Source: a virus
Strand: one strand, 5' to 3'
IMG/VR virus record: IMGVR_UViG_3300020190_000328
Span: 1 to 24,946 of that record
Length of the DNA stretch: 24,946 nt
The notes under the pieces were generated by a model. It was given only the letters and a program-made list of their open reading frames with translations. It had not been told where the DNA came from and made no database searches. Shown here one piece after another: positions 6,305 through 24,945 of this stretch. A program made the translations under genes and the position numbers. Position 1 is the stretch's first letter; each line of letters starts with the position of its first letter.

Positions 6305-6774
6305 TATTCTCTCCAAGTCTTTTCTGCGGCCTTTAGGGCTTGCTCATTCATCTCATGGACAAGAGTATCCCAATCTTTTATAACACGCAATCCAGCCCAT
6401 TCTGGGCGCACGACATAGGGTGAAGCGGCCAGCAGTGTTGGGATACCTAGTTTTAAGGTTTCGGCACAGGTTATTGGGTCGTTATCAACGTACCATTCAG
6501 CCTTGCCAAACACTGCGGCTACTCGATGAACTTTCTCAGCTCTTAAATGGGAGTTTGGCTCGTCTAGCATTTCATAAAACGAGGGTTTTATCCCCTCTTT
6601 TTTTAGCCAGTCTTCAATTGGTAACTTGTCGTATGTTTCGTTGACTACCAAGCAAACACGACCAATTGAAAAATCGTGCATCATACGCCAGAGTGAAAAC
6701 CCCTGAGGATCTGGCTGTCTTAAAGCCAGAATTTCCGCTGGGCGAGCCAGCACAGAAAAGTTAAATATGATCAC
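6304..6774 (-). CDS. HAD-like protein with altered catalytic motif
   Basis: The C-terminal half, AEWYVDNDPITCAETLKLG (92-110) followed by IPTLL and RPEWAG, matches the motif IV region of phage HAD-superfamily phosphatases, including an Asp pair at D97/D99. Motif I, normally DxDxT at the extreme N-terminus, reads FNFSVLA (4-10): both Asp are replaced, so phosphatase activity by the usual mechanism is unlikely. GTG 6774 overlaps the previous stop (GTGA), and no room exists for a longer N-terminus carrying the missing motif without entering the previous gene. It may bind a phosphorylated ligand or protein rather than hydrolyse it. Confidence 0.7.
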   Translation of the reverse strand: MIIFNFSVLARPAEILALRQPDPQGFSLWRMMHDFSIGRVCLVVNETYDKLPIEDWLKKEGIKPSFYEMLDEPNSHLRAEKVHRVAAVFGKAEWYVDNDPITCAETLKLGIPTLLAASPYVVRPEWAGLRVIKDWDTLVHEMNEQALKAAEKTWRE

Positions 6775-7229
6775 CCGTCATACATCCCTTTTACTTGACG
6801 GTTCTTGAAAGTCACAAAAGCTGACGCTGGGCAGTAATGGCACAGATATTGGCGGTTTTCTTTTGGAACGCCAATCTTACGTCCAATCGTTTTTGACTCG
6901 TTCTCGTAGTCAGGGCACATCCCGGATGGGCGGTTATGTCGGTTAAAGCACTTTAGAGCTTCAACTTTTAGGTCGTTGCGCACTTCCCGTACTTCCCACT
7001 CGTTCTTTGCTAGCTCCTGTTTAATCTTGGTCTCATCACCAAGCTTCTCCCAAGTTTCTTGGTCGCATCGCAAGATTATTGACTTGTGTGCGTCAGGATC
7101 TGGATTTGAGGCTTGTCCAAGGTGACGATTACAGAGCTCAATAAGTTCCATATCGTATTCAGCTGGACCATCATAGTCGAGCATACGGTACATCGTACCA
7201 CAGGATTGACACGTCAAAAGACGGGGCAT
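6771..7229 (-). CDS. Zinc-ribbon protein of unknown function
   Basis: Two cysteine pairs, CQSCG at residues 7-11 and LCHYCP near residue 130, plus CFNRHNRPSGMCPDY around 93-107, suggest one or two structural zinc sites. Between them is a charged helical region. The ATG at 7229 has AGGAG eight bases upstream. Similar zinc-ribbon proteins occur in actinophages as I remember them, without a known role. It heads the cluster containing the HAD-like and barrel proteins, joined by four- and one-base overlaps, so the three likely work together or at least are co-translated. Confidence 0.72.
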   Translation of the reverse strand: MPRLLTCQSCGTMYRMLDYDGPAEYDMELIELCNRHLGQASNPDPDAHKSIILRCDQETWEKLGDETKIKQELAKNEWEVREVRNDLKVEALKCFNRHNRPSGMCPDYENESKTIGRKIGVPKENRQYLCHYCPASAFVTFKNRQVKGMYDG

Positions 7230-9612: not shown

Positions 9613-10053
9613 TTACTGACCTATACCGTCGTACTGGCTCATACCCTTTTTGGGTTTAAGATTGGGGCGCTTTATACCTTGTGGGTCTGCTTGGTCCGGT
9701 TCAGAGTAGGGCTTACTGTAGGGAACGTCAAAGCCCTGTAGATTCATATTCTCTTTGCCTTGCATACTTTTTGGTCGGCTTGTGCCCTTGCTTATGTCCT
9801 TTTTGGGTTTCTCAGTATTTTTGGGTTTCTCAGTAGTTGGACGAGGAATCCCATAAGGATTTGCTTCATCTTTACCTTGTATACCTTGGATGGATTTAGC
9901 TTGCCTGTAAAGGTCGCGCTTGTTTTGTTTATTTGCAACTCTGTCAGAGTCAGCAATTATTGGGTCAATAGCTGGTCCTGGGTTGCTTGATGGGCCAACC
10001 CAGTAATTCTTTATACCTGCAAGGCCACCACGAATGGTTGATTTAATACCCAC
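9613..10053 (-). CDS. Lys/Pro-rich disordered protein with GIKxTxRGG N-terminus (146 aa)
   Basis: GTG at 10053 has AAAGGAG with a 7-base spacer and lies 11 bases inside the preceding gene. The N-terminus MGIKSTIRGGLAG is nearly the same as that of the next gene upstream (MGIKTTFRGGMGG), suggesting a duplicated short signal. The rest is hydrophilic, with degenerate repeats: 'QGKxxxN' followed by 'GIxRP' and runs of Lys-Pro. Such sequence is expected to be unfolded and positively charged, so nucleic-acid or virion packaging contacts are conceivable. No known domain. Confidence 0.72.
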   Translation of the reverse strand: MGIKSTIRGGLAGIKNYWVGPSSNPGPAIDPIIADSDRVANKQNKRDLYRQAKSIQGIQGKDEANPYGIPRPTTEKPKNTEKPKKDISKGTSRPKSMQGKENMNLQGFDVPYSKPYSEPDQADPQGIKRPNLKPKKGMSQYDGIGQ

Positions 10054-10258
10054 TGTCCATCTCCTTTGCGGTTCCTAGCTCTTTGTAGGGGTCTCTAGAT
10101 GTGTCTTCTTCTACGTAAGCACCATCATCGTCTTCACGGTAGATAGGCAAGCTGTTTTCGTCAATGGAGGTGCGGCTGTTCATTTGCATTTTTTGAAGCT
10201 CTCCATGATGGGCGTGATAACCGCCCATTCCTCCACGAAATGTTGTCTTAATTCCCAT
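10043..10258 (-). CDS. Small protein with GIKxTxRGG N-terminus (71 aa)
   Basis: I place the start at ATG 10258 because the resulting N-terminus MGIKTTFRGGMGGYHAHHG matches that of the following gene (MGIKSTIRGGLAG); the frame is open back to an ATG at 10328 that overlaps the previous gene and lacks a ribosome-binding site. An AAGAG stretch upstream of 10258 is only a weak site. After the Gly/His-rich start the protein is acidic (YREDDDGAYVEEDTSRD). No domain recognised. Confidence 0.65.
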   Translation of the reverse strand: MGIKTTFRGGMGGYHAHHGELQKMQMNSRTSIDENSLPIYREDDDGAYVEEDTSRDPYKELGTAKEMDSGY

Positions 10259-10304
10259 TTTTGCTCTTTTCTTACGTGGTCCCGTCCAATTGGGGCCTAG
10301 TTTT

Positions 10305-10514
10305 TTATTTTGAGTTATCCCTAACACCATTCCAAGTGGTGCTTTGGGCTTTTGACTTGGCTATAACATCTTCGTACTGTTCTTGAATGCTTTTGTGTAA
10401 TTCTTGAGCTTGTTCAAGTGTCAGTCCAGGGTTGATACCCTCAACATATATTTTATACAAAGCATCTGCTAGGGTTAGTGGTGCTTGAATTTTTGGTGTG
10501 GTTACATCACTCAT
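10305..10514 (-). CDS. Small helical protein (69 aa)
   Basis: ATG 10514 has AGGAG six bases upstream. The sequence predicts a helix LTLADALYKIYVEGI, a turn NPGLT and a second helix LEQAQELHKSIQEQYEDVIAKS, that is, a compact helical hairpin, with a polar tail. It is one of the few clearly ordered proteins in this block. No family recognised. Confidence 0.7.
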   Translation of the reverse strand: MSDVTTPKIQAPLTLADALYKIYVEGINPGLTLEQAQELHKSIQEQYEDVIAKSKAQSTTWNGVRDNSK

Positions 10515-11001: not shown

Positions 11002-11505
11002 TCATTTCCACGGCGGAGCTAGCGTTTTAAGAAGGCTCCGTCTTTGCATGTCAATTACCTCTTGCTGCTGTCTACCTATACCTCTTGGTATACCCCTTGG
11101 ACCAGCTTTACCATCGTTTGTTAACTGAACTGGCGCAGCACCTGGGGGTGCAAACTTCATGCCTTGTGATTGATATAGTAAGCCAGTTTGAAGGTTAAAC
11201 TCTTCTGGCCATAGGTAATCGCCAGTATTTATGCGTTCACCCTTGTGAACTCCTCGGCTATAGGGCCTAGTGTTGGTTCTAGCAACAGCGTTTACAATCT
11301 TGTCTTGTCTACGGTTAGAAGACATTGTACCCAGGTAGCCGTCCGGGTATTGAGTGTCGGGGTAACCACCCCATGCGGCTAAACGTGCGTCCTTAGCGTT
11401 CCTGAACGATGGGGTTGGGCCAAGCATAGGCTGGCTTTCTGGTACGTAAGGATCGTATCCTCCACCCCAGTCAGTAAACGTCTGCTGATTTGGACTAGCG
11501 GCCAA
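11002..11505 (-). CDS. Hypothetical protein (167 aa)
   Basis: TTG at 11505 is chosen because GGAGG lies five bases upstream; a TTG at 11517 is in frame but overlaps that site. The protein is rich in Gly, Pro, Tyr and Arg, with short ordered-looking parts (FRNAKDARLAAWGGYPD, DYLWPEEFNLQTGLLYQSQ) and a C-terminal amphipathic helix RQQQEVIDMQRRSLLKTLA. The TTG lies inside the end of the 46-codon gene upstream (overlap 11 bases), so its expression may depend on translation of that gene. No family recognised. Confidence 0.65.
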   Translation of the reverse strand: MAASPNQQTFTDWGGGYDPYVPESQPMLGPTPSFRNAKDARLAAWGGYPDTQYPDGYLGTMSSNRRQDKIVNAVARTNTRPYSRGVHKGERINTGDYLWPEEFNLQTGLLYQSQGMKFAPPGAAPVQLTNDGKAGPRGIPRGIGRQQQEVIDMQRRSLLKTLAPPWK

Positions 11506-11635
11506 GGGTTCCTCCAAAAGCTCCTAGAATACCGCCCTGTCCACCACCAACGTTTGAAATTGGCTTAGGTTTAGGAGTCTGTTTCTTTTCAGTTTTCTTC
11601 TTTTTAGAAGTTGAAGAAGTCTTCTTTGAGGACAT
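11495..11635 (-). CDS. Very small Lys-rich protein with Gly-rich tail (46 aa)
   Basis: ATG 11635 to TAG at 11495-11497. The product is MSSKKTSSTSKKKKTEKKQ, then PKPKPISNVGGGQGGILGAFGGTLGR: a strongly basic half and a glycine-rich half. An AAGGA/AAGAG stretch lies just upstream, inside the 53-codon gene, which it overlaps by 32 bases; it also overlaps the following gene. It fills what would otherwise be an empty stretch between the giant gene and the 167-residue protein. The coupled arrangement and biased composition matching the neighbours support it. Confidence 0.55.
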   Translation of the reverse strand: MSSKKTSSTSKKKKTEKKQTPKPKPISNVGGGQGGILGAFGGTLGR

Positions 11636-11790: not shown

Positions 11791-14700
11791 CTACTGGTTA
11801 TCTGGGTCTATTTGCGAAGTATTTCCAGAAATATTAGGAGTATTGTCAAATTGTGGTGATAATTTTTTATCCATTTGAAATTTTGTTAGTGGTTTAGGAC
11901 GGCTTGGGTTTGGATTTGTTACCGGAACTGGATATTTAGCAGCTTGTGATATAGCATCTTCTTTCACAAACTTAGGAGTTGCACGTCTAGCCTGCGCCGA
12001 CTCTGTTGATTCCTGAATTTCTGATATCTTTGCTTCCGGCAAAACAACAGAACTAGTACCAACTGGAAGTTCTTTATTTGTCCTCCCTGGCGTCATAGTA
12101 TCAGGACCTTCGCTACCAACGTTTATGGGGAATCTTACTGAACCGGAACGGACATTAGTCCTCGTAGAACCACTGATTGGTTGGTTGTTGACAACAATAG
12201 GTGGCCCAGGCTGTCTAGACCTTAGCTCATCTTCAACAAATCTGTCTAGAAAGTCTGGCGTTTCAAATCCTGGTCCTATCGGCATGTTTGCGTCAATGGC
12301 TTTTCCAATATTTTGTCTAACCTGTCCTGAAATAGCATAGGAGTCTGGAAGAGATTCTAAAATAGAAGCTAACTTAGTAGAATCTGACACAGGAGCAGTA
12401 TCTCGGGGTTGTGGTTTGACCTTTTGAGGGATACCTCTAACCATGTTTCCAAATCGCACCATGTTTCCTGTAGAACGCATCGTTCCTCTCCGTGTCCATT
12501 TTGGTTTTTCATCTTTATCTTTAGCCTTATCGCCTAGTGTTTCAGGTGCGGTTTTCGACTGTGTGTTGGGGTTACCTTTAGCTACTGTTTCTTTTTGCGC
12601 GACTTCAACCCCTTTTACCGTTCCAGAAACACGTCCACCTGGCGTTGTCACTTCAAAGGTGTGCCCCACGTCTTTTCCTACGATGGCTGCACCTATCGGT
12701 GATTTTGATGACAATCGTGGGTGTTTTCCAACGGATGATTTTTCACCTGTAGGTATTTCATACGTTTGTGTTATACCATTTAGCTCTAATGTAACGTGCT
12801 TACCTGGACCAACTCCTGGTGTAGCAAATGGATCTATAATAGTATGGTTATCTAGTTTGTGCTCTAGTTCACTAATTCTGGATTCATGCCTTGTTTGCTC
12901 AGCAAGATTAGCTACGTGTTCGGCGTTTTCTCTCAAGTCTCCGAAAGCTGCAGATTCAGCTAGCTGATCAGCTATTTTTTGCCGACCAGTTGTTTTTAGT
13001 TCCTGAAGCTGGCTTTGTATATCTTTGAAGTCATATGTAGTTAGTTGATGTTCGCCAGTACCCGCACGTGAACCAACAGACGGCACACTACCACTACTTG
13101 ATCCAACAGATGCTGTACTACTATCAGCGGTAGGTGCTTGGACGACCTTATCAATTGGGTTTATGCTTGTATACTTAACGATGCCACTGTCATCCATCTT
13201 CGTTTGTTTAGAAATGAGCCAGTTGCGGCCTTTGCGTTGCCTATCTTGGAGATCGTTAGACGCAATTGGATAGTTATAGGTTCCAGGTTGTTCTTCCTGA
13301 AAGGCAAGGTTCATTGGATCTATCAATGGGCTGTCTTCATTTTCAGTAACTATATCTCCCATTCTATTTTTTGCATATCTGCGTAATGGGTCTACACCTG
13401 CAAACTGGTTGCCGGTTACGGGAATTCCTGTTGTTGCGCCGTACCTAATGCTACCATCATCATTTATTATCTTTTTACGTCTTTGGGGCAAAAATGGTAG
13501 TGCTGCATAACCAGACACACCAGCTGGTGCGGACAAAGGTGAGAGTGGTTCGGTAAGTTTTGCTTTTGCTAGTGCTTGTGCTTCTTTTTGATGGCGTTCC
13601 GCTTCTCTGTACCTTTCGTTAAGTGCGTCAGCTACTTTATCAGTCTTACCTTCTTTTGCATCTTGAAGTCTCCGTTCTTGCGATTCGGATCTTGGAGTAA
13701 TACCAGAAGCTGTAGCTTTGTAACCACGTTGTCTAACAGCGCGGGCATAAGCTGCGTCTTCTGGAGTGAAGTCTCCTCTACTAAGTCTTGCAATTCGTTC
13801 TGCTTTATCAGTTAGCCCCATCTCCTGTAAAAGGGATCCCATCTCAGGTGGAGCTTCTGGGAACATTTTTTCAGGTATCTTTTTTTCATCGTCAGAATAT
13901 ACAACTTGACCTGATTCATCAAGCTTTGGAAAACTACTAAGTATGTTATTTATGGCTATTTCTGCTGGTAGGTCCTTATTACGAGTGTAGTCGTTATATT
14001 TTTCCCAATCCTTTTTTTCTCTCTCTGAGGGGTTATGGGTGTATTCTACATCTCCAATATCCTCAACTTCCATACCAATTACGTCTTCGACGCCAGCCCA
14101 CGACAGTCCCGCAGGGAATATTTTGCGCCCATTTACCTCACGGTTTTCGGTTGTGTAGTATTTACCCCCGTACACACGTCGTTTGATTGTCCTTTTCTCA
14201 GCAGATGGGGGGGTTCCAAGTAAACGTTCAAGTATGGTTGCTCGTATTTCGTTGCTAACTCTTGCAGTACCTTTATCTCCTGCCGAATCTTCCTTAAGTT
14301 TTGGTCTTCTTACTGTTTCTCCGCCTACATCTATTTCTTCATAGACAAAATCACTAGTCCTTACGTCGAACTCAAGCTCTGACTGGTTTCTTATCCTCTG
14401 AATGTGCCGTTCAACGGCTTTTCTACCTGCGTCTTTAATTTCCCGTGTTACCTGCCCACGTTTTGCACTATGTCTTCTTTTTTCAGCCTCGTATTCTTCT
14501 AAACCTTTATCGTCCATGGCGTAGGAAAATCTATCTGGAGGGTCACCAGGAGGTGACATACCTTCAACTTCTTCACCGGCTGCGTTTAATTTAGTGTGCG
14601 TGCCTGCTTCTATATCTTTTCTTGTTTGTTCTTCGGCGCTTCTTCGTAATCTTCTAGCTTCTTCCAGGTCTTTTAAAGCAGAAGCTATGTGTATACTTCT

Positions 14701-17637
14701 TAAATTAAAAGCTTCTGCAGACTTTCCTAATGCTTTTGCGTATTCCTCATCAGTTGCATCTTTTTCTTCAAGTCTTTCTGCGGTACGTATGAGTTTTTCT
14801 GCATCTTTAGTAGATGTCAAACCAAACTGCACCCTAAGCTCTGGTGAAAGGGTCCCACGATTAGCTGCTTGTTGAATTGCACGTGCAGCTACTTCACCAT
14901 ACCCAGTGATTTGCTGAGAAACACCAAGTGCAGTTTCTGTTAAAGGTTCTCCGGTTTCTAGGTCTTTACCACCCGTTACTGTTTTTGGTTGTCTTTGGAA
15001 TACTCCAAGTCTTATTCCAGAAGCGTCAACTCCAACAGGAGCAGTTTTTTGCCTCTTACCCATAACGGGTATGTTTTTCATTACTGGTTTGTTGTTCTCA
15101 TCGTACACTGGGTTTCCAGCATCATCAACTTTTTGTTTTCTTTGAAACTTTAGTTTTCCTTTATCGTCAACTTCTTGGTAGTCTTCCATAACCGGAGATT
15201 GAACTGTTTTGCGTCTCTTTTCGGTACGCATTCCAGTTACTGTTGGATTACCCGTTTCGTCATTTTCAATAACAGGTACTTGTACGTCTTCTGTCTGGTC
15301 ACTTAAGCGTGTTTCGTATACTAAAGCTCTGGGTGCTAGGGTTCCAGATTCTAAGGCTCTTTGTTTGACTCTTTTAGCAGCGGATCTAGTAAATTTACCA
15401 TGTGCATCTTTAGCTGTTTCAACTTTTGTAACTGGGTCTACCTTAAATAAAAGCGGGTTTAAGGTTGGGTCTTGCACCCCTTCGCTGAATATTTCGTTTG
15501 ATCTAATACTTCCTAATTTACCCTGCTTACGGAACTCATTAACAACCTGTAGCTGGGATCTAGTTAGACCACTACCGGTAATTCTTTTTGATCCGGGGTC
15601 ACCCTCTCTCTTTTGGGAAGGGAGAACAGTACCGGCTGGTTGTTTTGGAAGTGACTCTTGTAGATCAAATATATGGCTGTATAGGTAGTCCTTTGGACCT
15701 GGGGCGGTGTCACGATAAAGGTATGCAGGACCCCCTCGTGCATCAGCGGGTCGAGATCTAACCGAACCGCCAAATTTAGACAGTTGGTCTTCAACAACAT
15801 CTTTACGAAGCCCAGGTCGCGTAATGACAGAGATTACTTGACCTGTTACTGGGTCGTGAACTTCAGTTGTCTGCCTACCTGAATTTGGATAAGCTGTGCT
15901 AGTTTGACGAATAAATTCATTTCTTACGTCTTTGTCAAACCCAAACGCGTCTTGGAATTCTGAGTGTGTTAGTCCTTGTTCTTCCCCTTCAAACGTAAAA
16001 CCATCTGGCCCAAACGTTTCTGTGTAAGACCCAGGAGATAGTAATGATTCTGCGACTCTTTCATGACCAACATTTTTTAAAAAGTAAGCGACCGTTGGGT
16101 CGTTTTCTGCAACAGCTGTTAGGTGCTCTTTTGCCGCTCTTATCCTAATGTTGCGTTGTTCACGCTCCATAGACTCTTGCAGTTGAGTCTTTTTTCCAAA
16201 GGAAAGATTATAAAGAACAAGGTCTTGTTGATAGGCTCTATCCCCTTCTTTTCCTCTTCCATAAGAGCCTCTCTGCGGCTCTGTGGATGAAAATGTATCA
16301 AAAGTGTTGTCACTTTTTTCCATGTCGCGAAATTTATCACGGTAGTTAAGCGCTCTAGTGAGCAACCTACGTGTATACCCTAATCTAGCGGCCTCGCGTT
16401 GTTCTCTAGTAGTAGCTTGCGGTATAGGACCACGATTAGACGGTGTACCATCTGGGCCAAGTCTAGATTGTGCAAGATCTGGGTCAACCTCTATGTCCTG
16501 GTCCAATCTTTGCCTGGCTGTGGTTGGTCCTACCCCATAAACTGCTTCGTTAGATTCGGCAAATTCAGCCTCAGCACGACGTCTCTCTGTGTCTTGAACC
16601 ATCTCTGATTTGGCAGAGCTAGCCTTAGATGCAGCCTGTCTTGCAGCGTCTGTAACAGTTAGATCTACGGGGTTCATTACCCCTAGATCAAACTCGGGCA
16701 TACCCTCAGAGTCAATGTCACCGGTTGCCTGGTACAGCTCTGCTATGTTAACCGGGCCTTTATTACTCATCAACTCTACGTCATCTAAATCATCAACTCC
16801 GGGTATACCACCCAAGAATATTATGTGAGCTACTAGATCCTGTTCTGTTGGGGTTTTCCCATCCCTTGAGCTAACGTATCCGTGTTTATCTGCGTAGGGG
16901 CTCTTAGGGTCGTAGGAAATACCAGGCAACCCACCAGTGGTGTACGTCCGTAGGAATTCTGGGATGCCTTGTAGCGCCGAGGGCAAGTCAGGCGCCCCTG
17001 GGCTTCCTGGTGCAAGAAGTTCAGCATCATAAGCAGCGGCTTTGTCGTATTTCATATCCGCGATTTCGGCTTCAGTGGAGAATTTTAAAGCCTTAGCTTT
17101 AGCTTTTTCGGATAGTTCACGAGATCGTTCTTCGTTTGTTTTTTTATTTCGTGCTCGTTTTATGTCACCTTTACGAGTTTCTCCAGTGGTGTGACCTTTG
17201 CGCTTTTTATCTTCTGGGGTGTTTCTTTCAGCAGCTTTACGAGCTCGGTCTCTAGCCCGGTTTCTACCTGGGTCTTCTTTCATAATCTCACGCCTAACGT
17301 GCGGAGGAAGTTCCGCTAGACGTTGATCATAAGGACTTTGTACCTCACCTGGAGCCTTTTCTTTAGGTAACTTTAGTGTCTCTTCAATTATTTCTCTATC
17401 TTCGTCAGTTAGCTCAGTGCTAGTTACCTGCTTTGGCCCCTTGGGTGGAGGTGGAGGAGGAATTGGCTTTTTAGGACTACCTGTGAGCAGTGGCTTGTCT
17501 GGGCGTGAGCGTGTTGAAGCGTCGTCCGATTTTGGAGCGTCATCTTTTTTAGAGTTTACTCTAGCATCATCTTCTCTTGCTTCTTCAATTGACTTAGAAA
17601 TTAAACCTTCAATTTTTTTCTTGGGGTTCTTTGCCAT
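11791..17637 (-). CDS. Giant, largely disordered protein with an internal GreA-like domain (1948 aa)
   Basis: ATG 17637 has GGAG ten bases upstream. The N-terminal ~200 residues are highly charged and Pro/Lys/Arg-rich (PPPPPPKGPK near 60). Between there and ~1500 are charged helical segments, coiled-coil-like stretches and degenerate repeats such as 'DDAGNPVYDENNKPVM'. Residues about 1531-1680 match a transcript-cleavage factor GreA/GreB: coiled coil with GDLRENAEH (1566-1574; D1567 and E1570 correspond to the catalytic acidic pair), RISELEHKLDN (1587-1597), SPIGAAIVGKDVG (1646-1658) and VTTPGGRVSGTVKGVEV (1663-1679). The last ~270 residues are again disordered. It leads a block of low-complexity genes and follows SpoVS. 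A virion-carried or early protein that targets RNA polymerase is my inference; no structural-protein motif is evident. Confidence 0.9.
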   Translation of the reverse strand: MAKNPKKKIEGLISKSIEEAREDDARVNSKKDDAPKSDDASTRSRPDKPLLTGSPKKPIPPPPPPKGPKQVTSTELTDEDREIIEETLKLPKEKAPGEVQSPYDQRLAELPPHVRREIMKEDPGRNRARDRARKAAERNTPEDKKRKGHTTGETRKGDIKRARNKKTNEERSRELSEKAKAKALKFSTEAEIADMKYDKAAAYDAELLAPGSPGAPDLPSALQGIPEFLRTYTTGGLPGISYDPKSPYADKHGYVSSRDGKTPTEQDLVAHIIFLGGIPGVDDLDDVELMSNKGPVNIAELYQATGDIDSEGMPEFDLGVMNPVDLTVTDAARQAASKASSAKSEMVQDTERRRAEAEFAESNEAVYGVGPTTARQRLDQDIEVDPDLAQSRLGPDGTPSNRGPIPQATTREQREAARLGYTRRLLTRALNYRDKFRDMEKSDNTFDTFSSTEPQRGSYGRGKEGDRAYQQDLVLYNLSFGKKTQLQESMEREQRNIRIRAAKEHLTAVAENDPTVAYFLKNVGHERVAESLLSPGSYTETFGPDGFTFEGEEQGLTHSEFQDAFGFDKDVRNEFIRQTSTAYPNSGRQTTEVHDPVTGQVISVITRPGLRKDVVEDQLSKFGGSVRSRPADARGGPAYLYRDTAPGPKDYLYSHIFDLQESLPKQPAGTVLPSQKREGDPGSKRITGSGLTRSQLQVVNEFRKQGKLGSIRSNEIFSEGVQDPTLNPLLFKVDPVTKVETAKDAHGKFTRSAAKRVKQRALESGTLAPRALVYETRLSDQTEDVQVPVIENDETGNPTVTGMRTEKRRKTVQSPVMEDYQEVDDKGKLKFQRKQKVDDAGNPVYDENNKPVMKNIPVMGKRQKTAPVGVDASGIRLGVFQRQPKTVTGGKDLETGEPLTETALGVSQQITGYGEVAARAIQQAANRGTLSPELRVQFGLTSTKDAEKLIRTAERLEEKDATDEEYAKALGKSAEAFNLRSIHIASALKDLEEARRLRRSAEEQTRKDIEAGTHTKLNAAGEEVEGMSPPGDPPDRFSYAMDDKGLEEYEAEKRRHSAKRGQVTREIKDAGRKAVERHIQRIRNQSELEFDVRTSDFVYEEIDVGGETVRRPKLKEDSAGDKGTARVSNEIRATILERLLGTPPSAEKRTIKRRVYGGKYYTTENREVNGRKIFPAGLSWAGVEDVIGMEVEDIGDVEYTHNPSEREKKDWEKYNDYTRNKDLPAEIAINNILSSFPKLDESGQVVYSDDEKKIPEKMFPEAPPEMGSLLQEMGLTDKAERIARLSRGDFTPEDAAYARAVRQRGYKATASGITPRSESQERRLQDAKEGKTDKVADALNERYREAERHQKEAQALAKAKLTEPLSPLSAPAGVSGYAALPFLPQRRKKIINDDGSIRYGATTGIPVTGNQFAGVDPLRRYAKNRMGDIVTENEDSPLIDPMNLAFQEEQPGTYNYPIASNDLQDRQRKGRNWLISKQTKMDDSGIVKYTSINPIDKVVQAPTADSSTASVGSSSGSVPSVGSRAGTGEHQLTTYDFKDIQSQLQELKTTGRQKIADQLAESAAFGDLRENAEHVANLAEQTRHESRISELEHKLDNHTIIDPFATPGVGPGKHVTLELNGITQTYEIPTGEKSSVGKHPRLSSKSPIGAAIVGKDVGHTFEVTTPGGRVSGTVKGVEVAQKETVAKGNPNTQSKTAPETLGDKAKDKDEKPKWTRRGTMRSTGNMVRFGNMVRGIPQKVKPQPRDTAPVSDSTKLASILESLPDSYAISGQVRQNIGKAIDANMPIGPGFETPDFLDRFVEDELRSRQPGPPIVVNNQPISGSTRTNVRSGSVRFPINVGSEGPDTMTPGRTNKELPVGTSSVVLPEAKISEIQESTESAQARRATPKFVKEDAISQAAKYPVPVTNPNPSRPKPLTKFQMDKKLSPQFDNTPNISGNTSQIDPDNQ
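12598..13047 (-). other. GreA/GreB-like domain coding segment
   Basis: Codes residues ~1531-1680 of the giant protein. In free GreA an N-terminal coiled coil enters the RNA polymerase secondary channel and the tip Asp-Glu pair helps cleave backtracked RNA; a C-terminal FKBP-like domain docks on the polymerase. Both halves are visible here in order and at nearly the usual length (~150 residues): coil with the tip GDLRENAE, then a beta-rich part with SPIGAAIVGK and TPGG. Confidence 0.88.
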
Positions 17638-17702: not shown

Positions 17703-17984
17703 TTACCTAGTAACAGGCTTAAAAGAGATGGCGGAAATTGTCTCTCCGTTGTCTCCGGGTATGTCATCAAACCCTATGATGAAACACAAATCGACCCCTC
17801 TTGGTGCCACGAATCCTCTAGCAATAGCGCAAGCTTTAACTGCTTGGTTAACAGCGCTGGCTCCTATTGCGCGCATTTTAGGGGACTGTCCAGCAATCAC
17901 TGACCTGGCTACAATTGACCCTACGCTTTGTGGGTTGCTTCCACCTGATACTTTTACAATATCGTCTACCGGTTCTTGAGACAT
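17703..17984 (-). CDS. spoVS-like: SpoVS-family protein
   Basis: Residues 5-66 read VDDIVKVSGGSNPQSVGSIV, then KMRAIGASAVNQAVKACAIA and RGFVAPRGVDL. These are the conserved blocks of SpoVS (stage V sporulation protein S), a small Alba-like alpha/beta protein. In Bacillus SpoVS affects sporulation, septation and autolysin expression and is probably a nucleic-acid-binding protein. The length (93 aa) is typical. ATG 17984 has CGGAG seven bases upstream. It lies between the resolvase-like gene and the giant gene. Its role in a phage is unknown; nucleic-acid binding or interference with host cell-cycle control are guesses. Confidence 0.92.
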   Translation of the reverse strand: MSQEPVDDIVKVSGGSNPQSVGSIVARSVIAGQSPKMRAIGASAVNQAVKACAIARGFVAPRGVDLCFIIGFDDIPGDNGETISAISFKPVTR

Positions 17985-18028: not shown

Positions 18029-18394
18029 TTACGAGTAACCGCCCTCTTTCAGCAGAGTAACAAAGTCATCTAACCGCATCACAACGTAGGTATCACCTAG
18101 TGCTTTTTCACCTTTACCAGCCCTCTTAACAACTAAAGCTGGCATTGACTTGCCAAGTTTAGACGCTTGCTCAACAGTTGCGTCTAACCAACCACTTAGG
18201 TTTAGCTTACGTTGGTTTTTACACTGTATCGCAAGCTCTCTTTCGGCAATGTGGTTTCTGATGCCGTTGATATCCCCAGTGTCCTCACTACCTTTGAGTA
18301 CGGTACGGGCTGCTTTTAGAAAGCCGTTAGCGTTGAGGTAACGTTTGATAGATGTTTCAAACGATGTACCTTTTTGTTTAGCCCTGTTTGACAT
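18029..18394 (-). CDS. PDDEXK endonuclease, Holliday-junction-resolvase-like (121 aa)
   Basis: Motifs in order: GTSFETSIKRYLNANGF (Glu near residue 13), GDINGI (Asp near 41) and ELAIQCKN (Q-x-K near 57-59), then SGWLDATVEQASKLGKSMPALVV. This is the PDDEXK nuclease layout of phage and archaeal resolvase-like enzymes, with Gln in place of the Glu of ExK, a known variation. It would cut branched DNA in a metal-dependent way. The start is ATG 18394 (GTG 18397 also possible); it overlaps the end of the upstream small gene by 17 bases. Second resolvase-like nuclease in this cluster, the other being at 19916. Confidence 0.8.
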   Translation of the reverse strand: MSNRAKQKGTSFETSIKRYLNANGFLKAARTVLKGSEDTGDINGIRNHIAERELAIQCKNQRKLNLSGWLDATVEQASKLGKSMPALVVKRAGKGEKALGDTYVVMRLDDFVTLLKEGGYS

Positions 18395-18557
18395 CACCGC
18401 TCACCGCCTTGCTGATCTTACGAAGTTCATTAAGGATCTCAACAAGAGTATCGTTGACCTTCAACAGGGGCTCTGTTGTGGACCGGTAAGCCTCACGCTG
18501 GCGATTTAGTGCCTGGTTGGCTTCCTTGGCTGCCTGGTATCCGTAGGGGTCTGACAT
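18378..18557 (-). CDS. Small helical protein (59 aa)
   Basis: ATG 18557 has GGAG six bases upstream, located in the last codons of the preceding gene; a TTG at 18569 is in frame but lacks a site. The sequence is two helices: AAKEANQALNRQREAYRST and a Leu-rich EPLLKVNDTLVEILNELRKI, likely a coiled coil or helical hairpin. No family recognised. Spacing of one base to the gene before and overlap with the nuclease after it argue for coupled expression. Confidence 0.7.
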   Translation of the reverse strand: MSDPYGYQAAKEANQALNRQREAYRSTTEPLLKVNDTLVEILNELRKISKAVSGDVKQG

Positions 18558-18558
18558 G

Positions 18559-19062
18559 TCATGCTCCAAATCTTGATGTACGTTGGTCTTTTCCGTGCAG
18601 ACCTATCCTACGACTTAACTCTCGAGAAAGCAACTGGGCCCCGCGTTCACAGGATTCAAATACAGCTTCAACTAGTTTACGATAAGCTCTAGAAACTTGG
18701 TACTTCTCTTGCTGAGCAACAACCCTGTGGTCTGTATCTCGACGTGCCTTAGCAATAGTTACCCGATCACCTTTAACGTCAGACCCCCACTGCTCAATCA
18801 GTACTTTTGCTTCTGTGATTCTACAGAGGTTGCCATCCCTATCTTCATCAATTTCAGCTTGCACTAGCTGTCCTTTTGTGTAAGATACCCAAGACATATA
18901 CTCTGTATACAAGTCCATGAGGTCGCTGTCGTCTAGGTCGTCTAGGTGGTCCGGTAGTTCTGGTGGATTATCCGACGGTCTAGCAGGCAGAGAGAACTTA
19001 CTATTAAATTTAGAGAGAGCTGGGTCTCCGTAGTCTTTTGGTATTACTCTCAATTCCAACAA
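18559..19062 (-). CDS. Helical phage protein of unknown function (167 aa)
   Basis: After a Pro-rich and very acidic region (PPELPDHLDDLDDSDLMDLY) the protein is almost entirely helical and charged (KGQLVQAEIDEDRD, RVTIAKARRDTDHRVVAQQE, AYRKLVEAVFESCERGAQLL), ending in a basic tail. I start it at TTG 19062, inside the end of the Cas4-like gene (13-base overlap); TTG 19056 is an equally weak alternative. It sits between two nuclease genes, which suggests a recombination or replication accessory, but no motif proves it. Confidence 0.75.
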   Translation of the reverse strand: MLELRVIPKDYGDPALSKFNSKFSLPARPSDNPPELPDHLDDLDDSDLMDLYTEYMSWVSYTKGQLVQAEIDEDRDGNLCRITEAKVLIEQWGSDVKGDRVTIAKARRDTDHRVVAQQEKYQVSRAYRKLVEAVFESCERGAQLLSRELSRRIGLHGKDQRTSRFGA

Positions 19063-19919
19063 ACTTTCTGGTATGGGCAGTATTTACAACCGGTGGCTTT
19101 ACTATCAGTTGCCCAAACTGGGTGTTCGGGCTCAGTGTTGTCCTCTAAGTGTGCGATAACTTTGCTGCAGTTGTCAAGAATTGGTTGAATTATTTCTTTT
19201 TGAAAGATAACGGTAAACTCTTTTACCTCCTGGGTGGGCTTCCACTCATAGATAAACACCATCTTGTCGTGGCCTGTACAGTGCATGTAGATGTGGCCCT
19301 GGCGGACATGGGAAGCAAATGGCTTTTTTATGTTTTTCCAAAGACCATCAAGTGTTAGCTCGCCACTTGAGTATGCTTTGTACAAGTTTGGGTGATCCCA
19401 CCGAACAGTGCCCAGACCAACGCTCTTTATTTCAATAAGAGCTTTGCCTTCTCCATCAACCAACTCTCCATCCGCGTGACCGAGTATGCGAAACCCATCG
19501 TCACGTACAGGTACCTCGCGATAAATGACATTACTAGAATTGCACTGGTGGCAATGGCTAGGAGAAACCCCGTACCATACTTCAGAACACGACGCACATT
19601 CCCATTTGCCACCAAGTATCCCAGCTTGGTGCATCCACTTTTGCCACTTTGCATGAATCGCATGGCCCTCCTCAAACACGTTCAACCTAGTCATATTATA
19701 TGACTCATCTAAGGCAGGATACTTGTTAATTTTATACCACGCGGCTCTAGCACACCAATCTTTTTTTGAAAGCTCAGAAGGGTGCAAATGGTCAGTGTCT
19801 CTGTGTTTGTTTCTCTCGCGGTTGTTTATCACAAGACGCTCTTGGATTACTGGTAGTATACGACCTTTGGACTTTATTGATTCTTTGTAAGTCTTGGCGT
19901 ACCAAGGCGCCTCTGTCAC
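19050..19919 (-). CDS. Cas4/RecB-like exonuclease with Fe-S cluster and inserted zinc ribbon
   Basis: Nuclease motifs of the RecB/Cas4 PDDEXK family: EEGHAIHAKWQ (83-93), GHADGEL with D150, LIEIKS with E163-x-K165, and QGHIYMH with Q207. C56 in DWCARAAWYK plus C278-x2-C281-x5-C287 at the C-terminus are the four ligands expected for the [4Fe-4S] cluster of Cas4/AddB-type nucleases. An extra zinc ribbon, C108-x2-C111 and C123-x2-C126, is inserted before the active site. The start GTG 19919 overlaps the previous stop (GTGA). In a cluster with RecA, DNA polymerase and SSB it is most likely a DNA-end processing 5'-3' exonuclease for recombination. No cas1/cas2 or CRISPR repeats are present. Confidence 0.9.
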   Translation of the reverse strand: MTEAPWYAKTYKESIKSKGRILPVIQERLVINNRERNKHRDTDHLHPSELSKKDWCARAAWYKINKYPALDESYNMTRLNVFEEGHAIHAKWQKWMHQAGILGGKWECASCSEVWYGVSPSHCHQCNSSNVIYREVPVRDDGFRILGHADGELVDGEGKALIEIKSVGLGTVRWDHPNLYKAYSSGELTLDGLWKNIKKPFASHVRQGHIYMHCTGHDKMVFIYEWKPTQEVKEFTVIFQKEIIQPILDNCSKVIAHLEDNTEPEHPVWATDSKATGCKYCPYQKVCWN

Positions 19920-20269
19920 AAGCGATCCCCGTCTACTCCTACCAACATTTGGAAGTCAGCCTCGTTAAGAATTACGTAGTGTCTGCCCCCAAGGTCAAAC
20001 TGAAGTACGGGAAGCCGATCTTCAAGGACACCGCGTTGAGTAAGGTCAGCCAACTCACTAGCCTTAATTGAGTAAGACTTTAGATTGTTTGTAAGCTTGT
20101 TCTCAATAAGAAGCTCGTGAGTGCGCACGTCGTTCTTTCTAAGCCAACCAGACCCAGATCCTGCGTTCCTACTGCCTCTATACATCTTGGCAGAACGCTT
20201 CTCCTGCTTCTTGGAAGCTCTCATAGTTTCACGCTGTTGATCTGCTCTGTTTTCTTTACCGAATATCAT
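19916..20269 (-). CDS. Resolvase-like PDDEXK nuclease (117 aa)
   Basis: SKKQEKRSAK (19-28, with Glu23), GSGSGWLRKNDVRTHELLI (37-55, with Asp47) and E56-x-K58 are arranged as in small phage Holliday-junction-resolvase-like nucleases, followed by the typical strand-rich end LPVLQFDLGGRHYVILNEADF. Expected role: cutting branched recombination intermediates. ATG 20269 has AAGGAG eight bases upstream inside recA and overlaps its stop (ATGA); the next gene overlaps by four bases. Directly beside RecA, so a recombination role is well supported by context. Confidence 0.82.
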   Translation of the reverse strand: MIFGKENRADQQRETMRASKKQEKRSAKMYRGSRNAGSGSGWLRKNDVRTHELLIENKLTNNLKSYSIKASELADLTQRGVLEDRLPVLQFDLGGRHYVILNEADFQMLVGVDGDRL

Positions 20270-21285
20270 AGGAAATACTCCTTTGCTTTCTCTTTGAGTT
20301 CAGATTGTAGTTCCAAGTCTTCGCGAACCCCAAGCAACAGGGCATCTTTTCCTTGCCACTTTTGGTCTTTGTAGTTGTAGTAGGCTCCAGCTCTTGTGAT
20401 TATGTCTGTTGCAATACAGATGTTAACAATGTCTTTGATCACATCAAAATCACCTAGTTTGAATGGTTGGCAATTGGCAAAGTAGAAGTCAACAACAGCA
20501 ACCTGCTGTGGTCTGTACGTTTTATTCTTTAGAGTTCTGGCTTTAATGGTCTGACCTACTGGCTCATCCTTAAACTTCAACCACTCATCTCGTTTTACTT
20601 CTAGTCTTACAAAGTAATGAAAGTTCTTGGCTTTACCGCCTGGTGTGGTGCGTGGGTCTCCATACATCACGCCAATCTTCTCTCGCCATTGGTTGATGAT
20701 CAAACCAGTGCACCCGCGATCCTCGTCAATCAACGACCTCTTTTGCGCCTTACTGCTCTTACGGAAAAACTTTCCAGTCAGTCTGGCTCCTAGACCCATC
20801 GAGAACTCATCCATCATCTTCTCAGCTTCATCACCTGGGACTAGTGCCGGAAGTGAATCTAGGACAATACAGTCAACTGCCCTATTCTCCATTGCACGAA
20901 TAATCAGGTCGTAGACCTGTTCCATTACGTTGGTCTCAACTACCCAAAGTCGGTCGAGGTCTACACCAATTGCCTTGGCGTAGTCTGGAACAAACTCTTC
21001 GGCGGCAATCCACATAGCCACCCACTCTGGATCAGCAGCTTGGTTAGCAGCTATGGTCTTGTAAGCCAAGGCTGTTTTTCCTGATGACTCGTCACCAATG
21101 ATTTCAGACCATTGGTTCATCGGCCACCCGCCTCCAAGCATAAGGTCAAAAGCTAGTACGCCTGTTGTAATACGTGGAACTTCTTCTTTTACTTTGTTTC
21201 CTTGGACAATAACTTGATCTCCATATTTCTTGTTAATAGAAGAAATAATGGATTCAAGGCTCTCACGGCCAGTTTCACTTTTCAT
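20266..21285 (-). CDS. recA-like (UvsX): RecA-like recombinase
   Basis: ATG 21285 has AAGGA seven bases upstream, giving 339 residues. Walker A is GDESSGKT (64-71; bacterial RecA has GPESSGKT), the catalytic Glu is at E96 in WIAAEEF, Walker B is CIVLDS (139-144), and loop L2 follows INQWREKIGVMYGDPRTTPG (197-216). The protein forms filaments on single-stranded DNA and carries out strand exchange. The large C-terminal acidic domain of bacterial RecA is shortened, as often in phage versions. It sits between the zinc-ribbon protein and the resolvase-like nuclease, with a four-base overlap to the latter. Confidence 0.96.
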   Translation of the reverse strand: MKSETGRESLESIISSINKKYGDQVIVQGNKVKEEVPRITTGVLAFDLMLGGGWPMNQWSEIIGDESSGKTALAYKTIAANQAADPEWVAMWIAAEEFVPDYAKAIGVDLDRLWVVETNVMEQVYDLIIRAMENRAVDCIVLDSLPALVPGDEAEKMMDEFSMGLGARLTGKFFRKSSKAQKRSLIDEDRGCTGLIINQWREKIGVMYGDPRTTPGGKAKNFHYFVRLEVKRDEWLKFKDEPVGQTIKARTLKNKTYRPQQVAVVDFYFANCQPFKLGDFDVIKDIVNICIATDIITRAGAYYNYKDQKWQGKDALLLGVREDLELQSELKEKAKEYFL

Positions 21286-21299
21286 TGTTTTCCTTGTTG

Positions 21300-21722
21300 T
21301 TATACTACCCAAGAAGCTTGGGAGGCTTGGTCGTACATACCATTCCAACCGCATTCAAAGCATCGCGGTGCTGGGCTGTTACCGTTGATTGTTGTGTTTC
21401 CACCTTTAGCTGTGCGTATAAACACGTTGCCACTACCACACTCTGGGCAGGTTAGATTTCCCTGCTTCTTAGCAGCTTCTCCTCGACCTTCCCATAGATG
21501 CGGTTGTCTTAGTGCTTCACCCAACCATCCTGGCCCTCTGGTAATGGGTTCGTTTGATACAGGTTGAGGTAGTGGGGTGTCTTTGTATGGCTGAGGATTA
21601 GAGTGAGTCAGCCCAGACGGTAGGCGTATAGGGATTGTAGTTGGTGGCATAGATGAAGTTGTGGGTCTAGCAGAAGTGGTTGGATTACCACTAAGCTTCT
21701 TAGCCCACCAATCACTGCTCAT
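21300..21722 (-). CDS. Pro-rich protein with C-terminal zinc ribbon (140 aa)
   Basis: ATG 21722 has AGGAGG nine bases upstream and lies 11 bases inside the previous gene. Residues 1-80 are Pro/Thr/Ser-rich and probably unfolded. The C-terminus has CPECGSGNVFIR and CFECGWNGMYDQ, a Cys4 zinc ribbon of the kind found in transcription and replication accessory proteins. No specific family recognised. It lies 14 bases before recA, together with the gene upstream filling the space between DNA polymerase and RecA. Confidence 0.78.
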   Translation of the reverse strand: MSSDWWAKKLSGNPTTSARPTTSSMPPTTIPIRLPSGLTHSNPQPYKDTPLPQPVSNEPITRGPGWLGEALRQPHLWEGRGEAAKKQGNLTCPECGSGNVFIRTAKGGNTTINGNSPAPRCFECGWNGMYDQASQASWVV

Positions 21723-22167
21723 CCTCGTCACCCTCCTCTAAGTCGCAGTCGTCATCTGACAGTGCTGATGATAACATGAATTCTAGCAGCGACACAATAT
21801 TAGTTTCAACTAAAGATGAGTCATACTTTTCAGGTTCAACAATGCTCAGCATCTCCTGGTCAATTAGGTGAGCTACAGCTGCTATACCAAAGGCTGTAAT
21901 AATATTCTCTGTAGAAACAATGGTGTCTTCGTCTAGACCGGCGGTATCCCGCAGGACGTTTACCATCCAATTTGCGCATTCTTTTACGCTGTCTAGAATA
22001 CCTGCGTGAGATAAAGTAAACCATTTTTGCATTATGTCCATGATTTCGTGTTCTTGGACTTCTGCAGATGGTACAGCGAACCCTGCAGCATGCGCCAGCT
22101 TCTGGCCTTCAAGTATAGATAGGGTGAGGTAAAAGTTACGCTCTTCAACTGGACTTGACGCCATCAT
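21712..22167 (-). CDS. Helical acidic protein (151 aa), unknown
   Basis: ATG 22167 overlaps the polymerase stop (TGATG); GTG 22170 is an alternative with GGAGG at a better distance. The sequence is a series of hydrophobic helices (FYLTLSILEGQKLAHAAGF, EIMDIMQKWFTLSHAGILD, TENIITAFGIAAVAHLIDQE) ending in an acidic tail (DDDCDLEEGDEDE). No family recognised. The acidic tail and position next to DNA polymerase would suit a replication accessory, which is inference. Confidence 0.72.
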   Translation of the reverse strand: MMASSPVEERNFYLTLSILEGQKLAHAAGFAVPSAEVQEHEIMDIMQKWFTLSHAGILDSVKECANWMVNVLRDTAGLDEDTIVSTENIITAFGIAAVAHLIDQEMLSIVEPEKYDSSLVETNIVSLLEFMLSSALSDDDCDLEEGDEDEQ

Positions 22168-24254
22168 CACCCTTTCGCCTCCGACCAATTATACGCTGAG
22201 TGGCATGAAACTTTTAACGGAATACCATTAATAATGTTACCATCTCCCATAGATAACACAACCTTTTGCTGTAACTCGTCAACTATCTGATCTGGAACCA
22301 TAGCCACTAGTTCGTCATGTACCTGTACTAGGATCTTTGAGCCTGTCCCAGTTAGTATATTGTTTACATCAATCATGGCTTTCTTGCATATGTCAGCAGC
22401 AGAACCTTGTACCACCGCGTTGACTGCCTGTCTCTCTGCTCTGGCCTTCAACATGCTGTCATCAGAGCGCAGATCTGGCAATCTACGTCGTCTTCCTGAG
22501 AGGGTTTCAACGTACCCATTCTTGATACCTGCTTCAATAACACTCTTTTTCCATTTAGTGATGCCAGAGAACTGCTTGTAGTACTGATCGATGACGGAGC
22601 GTGCGTGCTCTACGTCAACTCCTGTGGTTCTTGCCAACTTTTGTGGGCCACCACCATAGGCCGTAAGGAAGTTAACACCCTTACCAAGCTGGCGTTCTTC
22701 TGAGGTAACCTCAGATACATCCTTACCTAGAATCAGGGCGGCAGCGCCAGCGTGGATGTCTTCGTTGTTCAAGAAAAACTCGCTCATCTTTTTGTCTTCG
22801 GAGAACATACACATAACACGGAGCTCGATCTGGTCGTAGTCAGCGACTAGCAGTACATGGCCGGGGTTAGCTACGAATAAACCACGGACGCTACTGTCTC
22901 TTGGAATGTTCTGCAGATTGGGGTTGCTGGAGGAAAGTCTTCCAGTAGCTGTTCTATGCAGGTGGAACGATGGGTGCAGAGAACCTTTGTATAGTTTGGT
23001 AAGTAGACCATCAACATAGGTTGACTTAACCTTTTTAGTTTCTGCCCAATCTATGAGCAGTGGTACTACAGGATGTTTGCTTTCAAGATTGCGAAGAGCT
23101 TCTTCATCAACCGATGCTGAACCCTTGTCGGTGTATTTGGTTGGCTTCAGCCCAAGACCACCCTCGTCCTTCTTACTAAACAGAAGTTGTTGTTTGTGCT
23201 TTGTACTGTCTGGGTTAAACCCGGGGGGTGCGTAATCCATCATCCCAAGTAGTAACCCATTTAGATGGGTGTCTAACTCTTTGCCAAGCTTAGTCATAGA
23301 TCGATGGTCTACAGGTATCCCGTTGTCTTCCATGTCCATCAATACACGGATAACTTCCATGTCTTGTCGAAGGCAAGACAGCAACTGCTCTTTATTTTGA
23401 ATCTTTTGACACAAGACTTTGTATAGATGCCACGTCCACTTTACGTCTAGGTGCACGTACCTAACCGCCTTGGAGAAGGGCACCTGAGTGATTATTGCGC
23501 CAAGCTTTCCGTCCATGTGATAGGGGTTAAAGCCACCAAAATTGTGGGCAATTAGTTTGTCAAGGCTGTACTCAGAAAGGTTCTCATTGAGAATGTGCTG
23601 TATAATCATCGTGTCGATGAACGGTCCGTCTGGTAAGCGGTCGTTGTAGTACTTGCGAATTGATCTGGCGTCAAACTTGATGTTGTGACCAACCTTGACA
23701 ACATCACTAAAGAATATTGGTTCCAAGACTTTAAACACGTCAGTACGTGAAAGTTGCTCAGGAGCTGCTGAGTACTCAGCCGGTATGTAGTACCTAGCTT
23801 TTGCCTCAGACTCTTTGCCATTTGCTAAAACTTTGCGGTAACCAGGGGGTGGTATGGTTGTACCGTCACCACGTTCTTCTGGTACGAGTATTTCACCATT
23901 TGGGTGGCCCATGGGTATGGCCCATGACTTACCCTCTGTTGCTAAACCAATCCAAAAGACTTCGTTTCTCATTGGATCTAGAGCTAAAGTGTTTTGCCAC
24001 CTAGTAACGATGGCCTCTTTAGACCTAGCCAACACATCTTCAGATGTTGTTTTAAGGGTGCTTTCGTGCTGCTTCCACTCTTGTTCGATCCACGCAATAA
24101 CATCACTGTGGCGTTCTACGTTGCCGCGTGTTTCTACGTCAAAGGCAAAAGCGCCAGCACTTTGAATGTGTTGAACAATTTCGTGAAGCTCTTCAATTGA
24201 AGATACTACGTAGGGGGCCATGTGACCCCCTACGTAGTTGTTGCGTTGCGGCAT
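22167..24254 (-). CDS. polA-like: Family A DNA polymerase with 3'-5' exonuclease domain
   Basis: Replicative phage DNA polymerase. Exonuclease: FDVET (38-42), VGHNIKFD (188-195) and YVHLD (266-270), all acidic residues present, so proofreading should be active. Polymerase: motif A VADYDQIELR (470-479), motif B RQLGKGVNFLTAYG (521-534, with Phe at the position of E. coli F762) and motif C QVHDEL (644-649). There is no 5'-3' exonuclease domain. ATG 24254 follows the SSB stop by one base without a ribosome-binding site; ATG 24221, also in frame, has AGGGGG upstream but lies in the loop of a perfect hairpin (24205-24238). Both starts leave all domains intact. Confidence 0.97.
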   Translation of the reverse strand: MPQRNNYVGGHMAPYVVSSIEELHEIVQHIQSAGAFAFDVETRGNVERHSDVIAWIEQEWKQHESTLKTTSEDVLARSKEAIVTRWQNTLALDPMRNEVFWIGLATEGKSWAIPMGHPNGEILVPEERGDGTTIPPPGYRKVLANGKESEAKARYYIPAEYSAAPEQLSRTDVFKVLEPIFFSDVVKVGHNIKFDARSIRKYYNDRLPDGPFIDTMIIQHILNENLSEYSLDKLIAHNFGGFNPYHMDGKLGAIITQVPFSKAVRYVHLDVKWTWHLYKVLCQKIQNKEQLLSCLRQDMEVIRVLMDMEDNGIPVDHRSMTKLGKELDTHLNGLLLGMMDYAPPGFNPDSTKHKQQLLFSKKDEGGLGLKPTKYTDKGSASVDEEALRNLESKHPVVPLLIDWAETKKVKSTYVDGLLTKLYKGSLHPSFHLHRTATGRLSSSNPNLQNIPRDSSVRGLFVANPGHVLLVADYDQIELRVMCMFSEDKKMSEFFLNNEDIHAGAAALILGKDVSEVTSEERQLGKGVNFLTAYGGGPQKLARTTGVDVEHARSVIDQYYKQFSGITKWKKSVIEAGIKNGYVETLSGRRRRLPDLRSDDSMLKARAERQAVNAVVQGSAADICKKAMIDVNNILTGTGSKILVQVHDELVAMVPDQIVDELQQKVVLSMGDGNIINGIPLKVSCHSAYNWSEAKG
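24205..24238. promoter_or_regulatory. Perfect 13-bp inverted repeat at the DNA polymerase start
   Basis: Arms ACTACGTAGGGGG (24205-24217) and CCCCCTACGTAGT (24226-24238) with an 8-base loop. On the mRNA the loop (UCACAUGG) contains the AUG of the internal start 24221 and the arm contains the purine-rich AGGGGG. It is placed where a translational operator would act. Coding constraint is visible too: it encodes YVGGHMAPYVV. Confidence 0.75.
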
Positions 24255-24255
24255 A

Positions 24256-24945
24256 TCAGTCAGACAAGTCTTCTAATGCAATCTGAATGAGATCCTTGCG
24301 GGACGGGATCTGGATGATATCGGAGGTGTACGCAGATTTGCGCATGACCTTGAAGTCTGTCTCAGTGAGGATATCGATGTTCCACTCTTCTAGGTCCCGC
24401 TCCTTGACCAGCTGGTGGTTGGTTGCGGAGGTAGCACCCTTACCGGAGCGGCTTACGGCCCAGAAGTGTTTGGACAGGGGCCCTTGACGTGGGTCAACGT
24501 GGAAGTTTTTGAGTTGATCAATGGCTCTAGGACCAACCTCATAGGACTTAAGAACTGGCTCTGAATCAGGAGACAGCAAGACAACGTTGAACGCAAACCG
24601 TGTTGATGGACGGCTACCGGCATCGCATAGTGGGCAACCCTTAGGGTCGAGGTCGGCAATACAGGTGAATGACTTCTGCCCTGAACGCTCAACCCAGTGC
24701 TGTCTGTAAGTAGCGTAAGGCTCATCTTCAAGGAACTTGATGATGATTGGTTCTTCGCTAACACGGAGGCGTTGGGCGTACGGCGAGTCTGCAGATTTTG
24801 CCTGCTCCACTGCTCCCCATCCCCGGCGGATAGCGCTCGCGGCACTAACAGGTGCCGCGTCGTCGGTCACTACTTTTGTCTGTCGGCGTACCGAAGTTGC
24901 TTCTTCCAGCACTTCGGTGTCGTCGTCGTCGTCGTATCTTGACAT
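24256..24945 (-). CDS. Zinc-containing ssDNA-binding protein, phage gp32-like
   Basis: The 229-residue protein starts at ATG 24945, one base from the right edge, so its ribosome-binding site is not visible. The N-terminus is acidic (a run of five Asp) and disordered. The core has strands IIIKFLEDEPYATYRQHW and a cysteine group C95-x8-C104-x2-C107 (CPLCDAG) with His83 nearby, like the zinc site in T4 gp32-type SSBs, then TRFAFNVVLLS. Position directly before DNA polymerase and close to recA fits. It would coat single-stranded DNA at forks and in recombination. Family is assigned by pattern and context, not by a strong signature. Confidence 0.78.
   Translation of the reverse strand: MSRYDDDDDTEVLEEATSVRRQTKVVTDDAAPVSAASAIRRGWGAVEQAKSADSPYAQRLRVSEEPIIIKFLEDEPYATYRQHWVERSGQKSFTCIADLDPKGCPLCDAGSRPSTRFAFNVVLLSPDSEPVLKSYEVGPRAIDQLKNFHVDPRQGPLSKHFWAVSRSGKGATSATNHQLVKERDLEEWNIDILTETDFKVMRKSAYTSDIIQIPSRKDLIQIALEDLSD

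Follow-up and report, generated by a model that had tools for sequence, protein, structure and literature searches.

The stretch of DNA considered here (the window) is a viral record 24,946 bases long, and the gene that concerns us is a very long open reading frame, the "giant". It lies downstream of genes for PolA, UvsX, a Cas4-like and a RusA-like protein, all on one strand; the SSB-like gene of the same group owes its presumptive identity to synteny and position, and to the annotation of phage Alone3. Table 1 collects the features of the locus. An initial annotation, made from the sequence alone, had reported both halves of a GreA-like domain inside this 1948-residue phage protein, and that report is upheld below: two Pfam domains exceed their cut-offs and a Gre fold is predicted. 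The coordinates and residue numbers given at that time were right to within a few bases, while the strand has to be corrected to minus.

Table 1. The giant gene, its recognisable parts and its neighbours in the window.
Feature	Position	Strand	Basis
Replication/recombination genes: SSB-like (putative), PolA, UvsX, Cas4-like exonuclease, RusA-like resolvase	18029..24945	-	Upstream, same strand as giant
SpoVS-like gene, conserved upstream border of slot	17703..17984	-	Pfam SpoVS 3.7e-20
Giant ORF, 1948 codons	11791..17637	-	ORF list; 57% identical full-length relative in contig G005
Long helical hairpin, residues 965-1100	14338..14745	-	Block common to the seven longest aligned giants; AlphaFold2 helices
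GreA N-terminal coiled-coil hairpin, residues 1531-1600, tip GDLRENAE	12838..13047	-	PF03449; AlphaFold2 helices
GreA C-terminal (FKBP-like) domain, residues 1609-1678, motif SPIGAAIVGKDVG	12604..12813	-	PF01272
C-terminal LSPQFDNT motif	11839..11862	-	Sequence comparison of giant C-termini
171-aa gene of unknown function, conserved downstream border of slot	11002..11517	-	99% identical in contig G003

With the neighbouring DNA polymerase as query, a scan recovers 80 related contigs of viral origin, up to 100 kb long. The cultured relatives, recognised through PolA, UvsX and the 171-aa gene, are the Streptomyces phages BRock, Alone3, LuckySocke, GiJojo and pSt2308; BRock is a myovirus by description (PMC7453282). 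The ORFs of one environmental contig of 89.8 kb, G011, read as sheath-like, tape-measure-like and baseplate-like genes, and its phage accordingly fits a myovirus; the phages of the window's group fit as myoviruses related to BRock. The Streptomyces phage relatives of the flanking genes, together with a WhiB gene in the window, indicate that the host is probably actinobacterial. The habitat we take to be freshwater, from knowledge of such phages rather than from sample records.

Giants are always found between the SpoVS gene and the 171-aa gene, and what occupies this slot differs greatly from phage to phage. The longest slot ORF ranges from ~157 to 1953 aa, and it exceeds 600 aa in 17 of the 41 distinct slot contents among the fetched loci (these 17, with the giant of contig L020, make up the set of 18 giants referred to throughout). 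The slot is hypervariable: giants of 600-1953 aa, nearly unrelated to one another, stand between near-identical flanks (the SpoVS protein is 100% identical in contigs G003, G005 and G007) and are absent from more distant relatives. Homologues of the 171-aa gene are present in BRock, Alone3 and others. Two small genes alone part it from the "sporulation protein" gene in BRock, and the corresponding stretch of Alone3 likewise has small genes only; the giant is thus an addition typical of the environmental group.

The comparison with G003 is the most direct view of how giants change. Positions 24945 to 17710 match at 92% DNA identity and positions 11813 to 8487 at 86%, and blastn finds nothing between 17710 and 11813: the matching stops at either edge of the giant's gene (11791-17637). 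The giants themselves are 30% identical over 146 residues, as against 100% for SpoVS and 99% for the 171-aa protein. The backbone of the window is closest to that of G003, yet the giant most similar to the window's own is the one in G005 (57% over 1931 columns). That backbone and giant point to different closest relatives shows exchange of the whole giant gene between phages. That the giant is an exchangeable, hypervariable gene, most of whose alleles are without Gre, goes beyond what the initial annotation had noticed. An assembly chimera was ruled out by G005, an independent contig with the identical architecture. (Another contig matches giant residues 1-519 at 100% but bears a small deletion; in L002 (IMGVR_UViG_3300021092_000422), at ~10243, the frame of a near-identical giant is broken by a small deletion near codon 82, which is either a true variant or an assembly error.)

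The giant had been described as charged and disordered, and its composition bears this out: it is hydrophilic, its composition is disorder-like and it contains no cysteine; the 18 giants pooled contain one cysteine in 23,525 residues. Mean TOP-IDP values are 0.18 for the giants, 0.09 for PolA and 0.07 for UvsX, and disorder is to be read as a prediction only, because the same scale hardly separates the folded Gre part (0.16). The overall alignment of the 18 giants is poor. The helical hairpin block is predicted as two helices (2-47 and 79-120), confidently for most of the blocks modelled; a structure search of the PDB yields no relative of it, and a scan of IMG/VR with the hairpin matches giants of this phage family only. 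No significant match to the giant was obtained with PADLOC and PHROGs, and Pfam finds no domain other than Gre over its cut-off in the 18 giants (LPD22 appears once, at 0.081).

A peptide of the form (L)SxQF or GGQFNx recurs near the C-terminus of otherwise divergent giants. QF falls within the final 35 residues of 11 of the 18, against 1.3 expected from the giants' own QF density; the enrichment is suggestive only, because related giants are not independent. The peptide is a possible sorting, docking or cleavage signal. Internal repeats resembling LS.QF occur in the G003 and L020 giants.

The identity of the Gre domain is secured from several directions. PF03449 (GreA_GreB_N) matches with E 1.3e-15 and 57.8 bits against a curated cut-off of 24.5, and PF01272 (the GreA_GreB C-terminal domain) with E 7.4e-10 and 39.1 bits against 26.9; the two together occupy 12604-13047. 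Profile searching returned Gre factors, as the initial annotation had anticipated: besides Pfam, a phmmer search of the PDB with residues 1500-1700 lists Gre and Gfh1 proteins only, the best being E. coli GreA (1grj, 1.1e-13). The two-helix coil and FKBP-like domain that it had also expected are both present in the AlphaFold2 model (mean pLDDT 89.4, from a 40-row input alignment), which has a coil of two helices (10-39 and 48-73) followed by a beta C-domain. The top 14 Foldseek matches in the PDB are GreA, GreB and Gfh1 proteins plus 3bmb, a Gre-like RNAP-interacting protein, and the TM-scores against 1grj are 0.68/0.74. Chance similarity to GreA was considered and ruled out: two Pfam domains match independently of each other, the structure matches as well, and there is a full-length relative.

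It is a diverged GreA nonetheless. The Asp and Glu claimed to be the catalytic pair, D1567 and E1570, do align with D41 and E44 of E. coli GreA, and their equivalents are retained in all three phage copies (the window, G005 and G011). The positions of Arg37 and Arg52, which we take to be part of the GreA basic patch contacting RNA, are occupied by Ala1563 and Leu1578 in the window and by Ala and Lys in G005. By alignment, the domain has kept the cleavage acids and lost the basic patch. Five near-invariant GreA columns by the tip (alignment columns 38, 39, 41, 50 and 53) also differ in the window, and beside the tip the cellular consensus EARAHGDLRENAEYHAA stands against ESAAFGDLRENAEHVAN. The loss of Arg37 and Arg52 and the altered tip-side columns suggest that Gre activity is perhaps weakened. 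The designation "diverged" follows from the NCBIfam GreA cut-offs (TIGR01462 and PRK00226), which are not reached: for TIGR01462 the score is 94 bits (113 for G005) against 139. Identity to the sampled cellular GreA proteins is 27-39%. In a tree against that sample, which is biased by its search patterns, the phage copies fall outside the cellular groups with weak support (68), for which reason no donor is named; ultimately the domain would be of bacterial origin.

Between the window and G005 the domain has pN 0.29 and pS 0.75, the latter saturated, and a dN/dS value is therefore not given; stretches of the giant outside Gre have pN 0.23-0.44. On this comparison the sequence of the giant is under purifying selection, and the constraint on Gre is unexceptional relative to the rest.

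How widely is Gre distributed among the giants? In profile searches of 33 records it is confined, apart from the window, to G005, which has both domains, and G011, which has the coil alone. Pfam correspondingly detects the coil in three of the 18 giants and the C-domain in two, and the giant family evidently does not need Gre, since the whole domain is present in two distinct giants and the coil alone in one. In G011 the coil follows shortly after the hairpin block; in the window it lies several hundred residues further on. The domain may have been gained on two occasions, or on a single one with rearrangement and loss besides; the tree, with a support of 68, favours neither history.

Outside this family, 2.9 million IMG/VR viral contigs were searched with an exact DNA pattern for GDLxENA(E/D)Y. 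The census yielded 20 contigs, 18 of them encoding Gre: 15 are stand-alone (157-186 codons from stop to stop), one is truncated by the end of its contig, and the remaining two, G005 and G011, are embedded. Variants such as the window, with His in the pattern's last position, are overlooked by this census. BFVD holds no match to the Gre domain at E 1e-3. Taken together, these results indicate that viral GreA exists and that embedding is seen here only in this phage family. (The stand-alone GreA genes sit on large viral contigs of 45-465 kb (L318, L319, L324, L325, L329, L331-L333 and others); no description of such genes was found among the papers searched, and some of these cases may be bacterial sequence. 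GreA matches in the phage collection were left unused: several are annotated bacterial GreA or GreB in misfiled records, and the remainder are unannotated, including three fetched regions without annotation.)

Comparison with known proteins places the architecture more exactly. The window's Gre shares with E. coli GreA (1grj) and GreB (2p4v) both domains in order, the fold (here predicted) and the acidic pair at the coil tip; it differs from them in its divergence, in the changed Arg37 and Arg52 positions, and in being internal to a protein of 1948 residues instead of making up a stand-alone protein of ~158. The stand-alone viral GreA genes (L266, L267, L318 and others) are also on viral contigs, but at 157-186 codons are not embedded. 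The earlier assertion that GreA stands alone was too strong: NCBIfam includes cellular fusions, NF011309 (a GreA model of 906 positions) and NF004969 (718 positions), presumably the Borrelia and Chlamydia types, in which Gre likewise belongs to a large protein. There Gre is C-terminal and only the Gre part matches, whereas in the giant it is internal, with 270 residues after it. The Pike of B. subtilis HelD offers another likeness, a Gre-like coil within a larger protein that works in the RNAP secondary channel (PMC7749165), although the Foldseek match (6wvk) is weak and HelD is a folded UvrD-like NTPase with a Gre-like arm; Pfam and NCBIfam searches find no NTPase family in the window giant, which is without a recognisable one. 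TraR and lambda Orf73 are mobile-element proteins that act on RNAP through the secondary channel, and the phage-encoded Orf73 is a precedent for reprogramming of host RNAP by that route (PMC9239242); they belong to the DksA family, are of ~70 aa and are not homologous to Gre. The domain, its fold, virus-borne GreA and cellular Gre fusions are thus already known. What is new is a full Gre module inside a phage's giant, an exchangeable and hypervariable carrier: as the initial annotation had supposed, no protein built in this way turned up among the phage records, in BFVD, in IMG/VR or in the open-access papers searched.

What might a Gre module do in such a carrier? GreA restarts bacterial RNAP that has stalled. 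It enters the secondary channel of the enzyme, docks with its C-domain at the channel rim and completes the active site with its acidic tip, so that backtracked RNA is cleaved. The reprogramming of host RNAP suggested by the initial annotation is plausible. The reading that we favour, by a modest measure, sees in the giant an accessory protein that brings its Gre module into the secondary channel of host RNAP and stimulates cleavage of backtracked RNA; the known GreA mechanism and the precedents of HelD and TraR/Orf73 recommend RNAP binding and cleavage stimulation. The giant would be rapidly diverging, largely disordered and probably made during infection, with Gre as one of its few folded modules. 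The C-domain would dock on the rim of the secondary channel; the inserted coil would bring Asp1567 and Glu1570 to complete the active site, and backtracked RNA would be cleaved; the disordered carrier may then tether RNAP to other binding partners of the giant. Because replication genes adjoin, the module may act while the phage replicates, for instance where RNAP has stalled in front of the fork.

The main rival to cleavage is competition without it. The module might sit in the secondary channel much as Gfh1, Rnk, the HelD Pike or TraR/Orf73 do, and work there as an inhibitor or competitor that keeps host factors out or clears host RNAP. The altered Arg37 and Arg52 positions would suit such a part, as would the persistence of the G011 coil without its docking domain, for which tethering could substitute, and HelD, Rnk and Orf73 are secondary-channel binders with no need to cleave; the model is unable to tell Gfh1 from Gre, the fold being common to both. 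Pure blocking has no need of the D41 and E44 equivalents, and all three copies have them. We judge this competitor tentatively conceivable, well behind cleavage in likelihood.

Delivery with the virion, which the initial annotation had entertained, finds little encouragement in the position of the gene, which adjoins replication genes and not virion genes. The proposal would be that the giant is packaged and injected like the polyvalent proteins or T4 Alt, its Gre acting at once on host RNAP. Size, the single cysteine in 18 giants, disorder-like composition and a recurrent QF peptide, perhaps a sorting tag, are all compatible with it, and phage polyvalent proteins are a known class, very large and bearing an effector-like domain as the giant does (PMC5512222, in which GreA is unmentioned). 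Those proteins, however, are typically encoded near late genes (PMC5512222), whereas the giant comes after replication genes, and in G011 some 17 kb separate it from the closest probable tail gene; the giant also lacks their several effector or polyvalent-associated domains, which are absent from the 18 giants except for one chance-level match. Packaging is for these reasons unlikely. Slightly less likely still is that Gre is a passenger, a folded segment captured by a tolerant disordered carrier and serving as a spacer without Gre function: few alleles have it, G011 keeps the coil alone and the window has its tip-side changes, but pN in the domain is low against saturated pS, and the acid pair is retained in three diverged copies.

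A broader proposal, which we put forward speculatively and think rather doubtful, concerns the slot itself. It may be a host-takeover locus in which alleles of a disordered scaffold, produced next to the replication genes and carrying modules for different host machines, are swapped whole between phages; the Gre of the window would then couple RNAP covalently to a phage scaffold, clearing or restarting RNAP on replicating phage DNA. Were that so, the giants in which no domain can be recognised would carry modules still to be described. If Gre is active, recruitment of transcript cleavage by a phage for its own transcription or replication becomes testable. The finding also marks a hypervariable locus in environmental phages, and its other alleles may hold more host-directed modules.

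Some other genes of these phages deserve mention. G011 encodes a stand-alone PARP/ART-like protein (L090:9057-9542; Pfam PARP 2.3e-9, with ART-PolyVal below its cut-off) in a second cluster of small disordered proteins. An N-terminal peptide, M.IK(S/T)T(I/F)(R/K)GG(M/L).G, is common to small proteins at 9613-10330 of the window and at 6615-7022 of G011, which come from two separate gene clusters. At 4874-6316 there is a queuine tRNA-ribosyltransferase-like gene (phrog_887, 8.3e-38); in phages, genes of this sort are in some cases DNA modifiers of the DpdA type. Finally, a Pro/Gly-rich protein of 607 aa without a family match (7493-9316) is 77% identical in G003 and 33-38% identical elsewhere, and on these figures it appears to be a second fast-evolving disordered protein.
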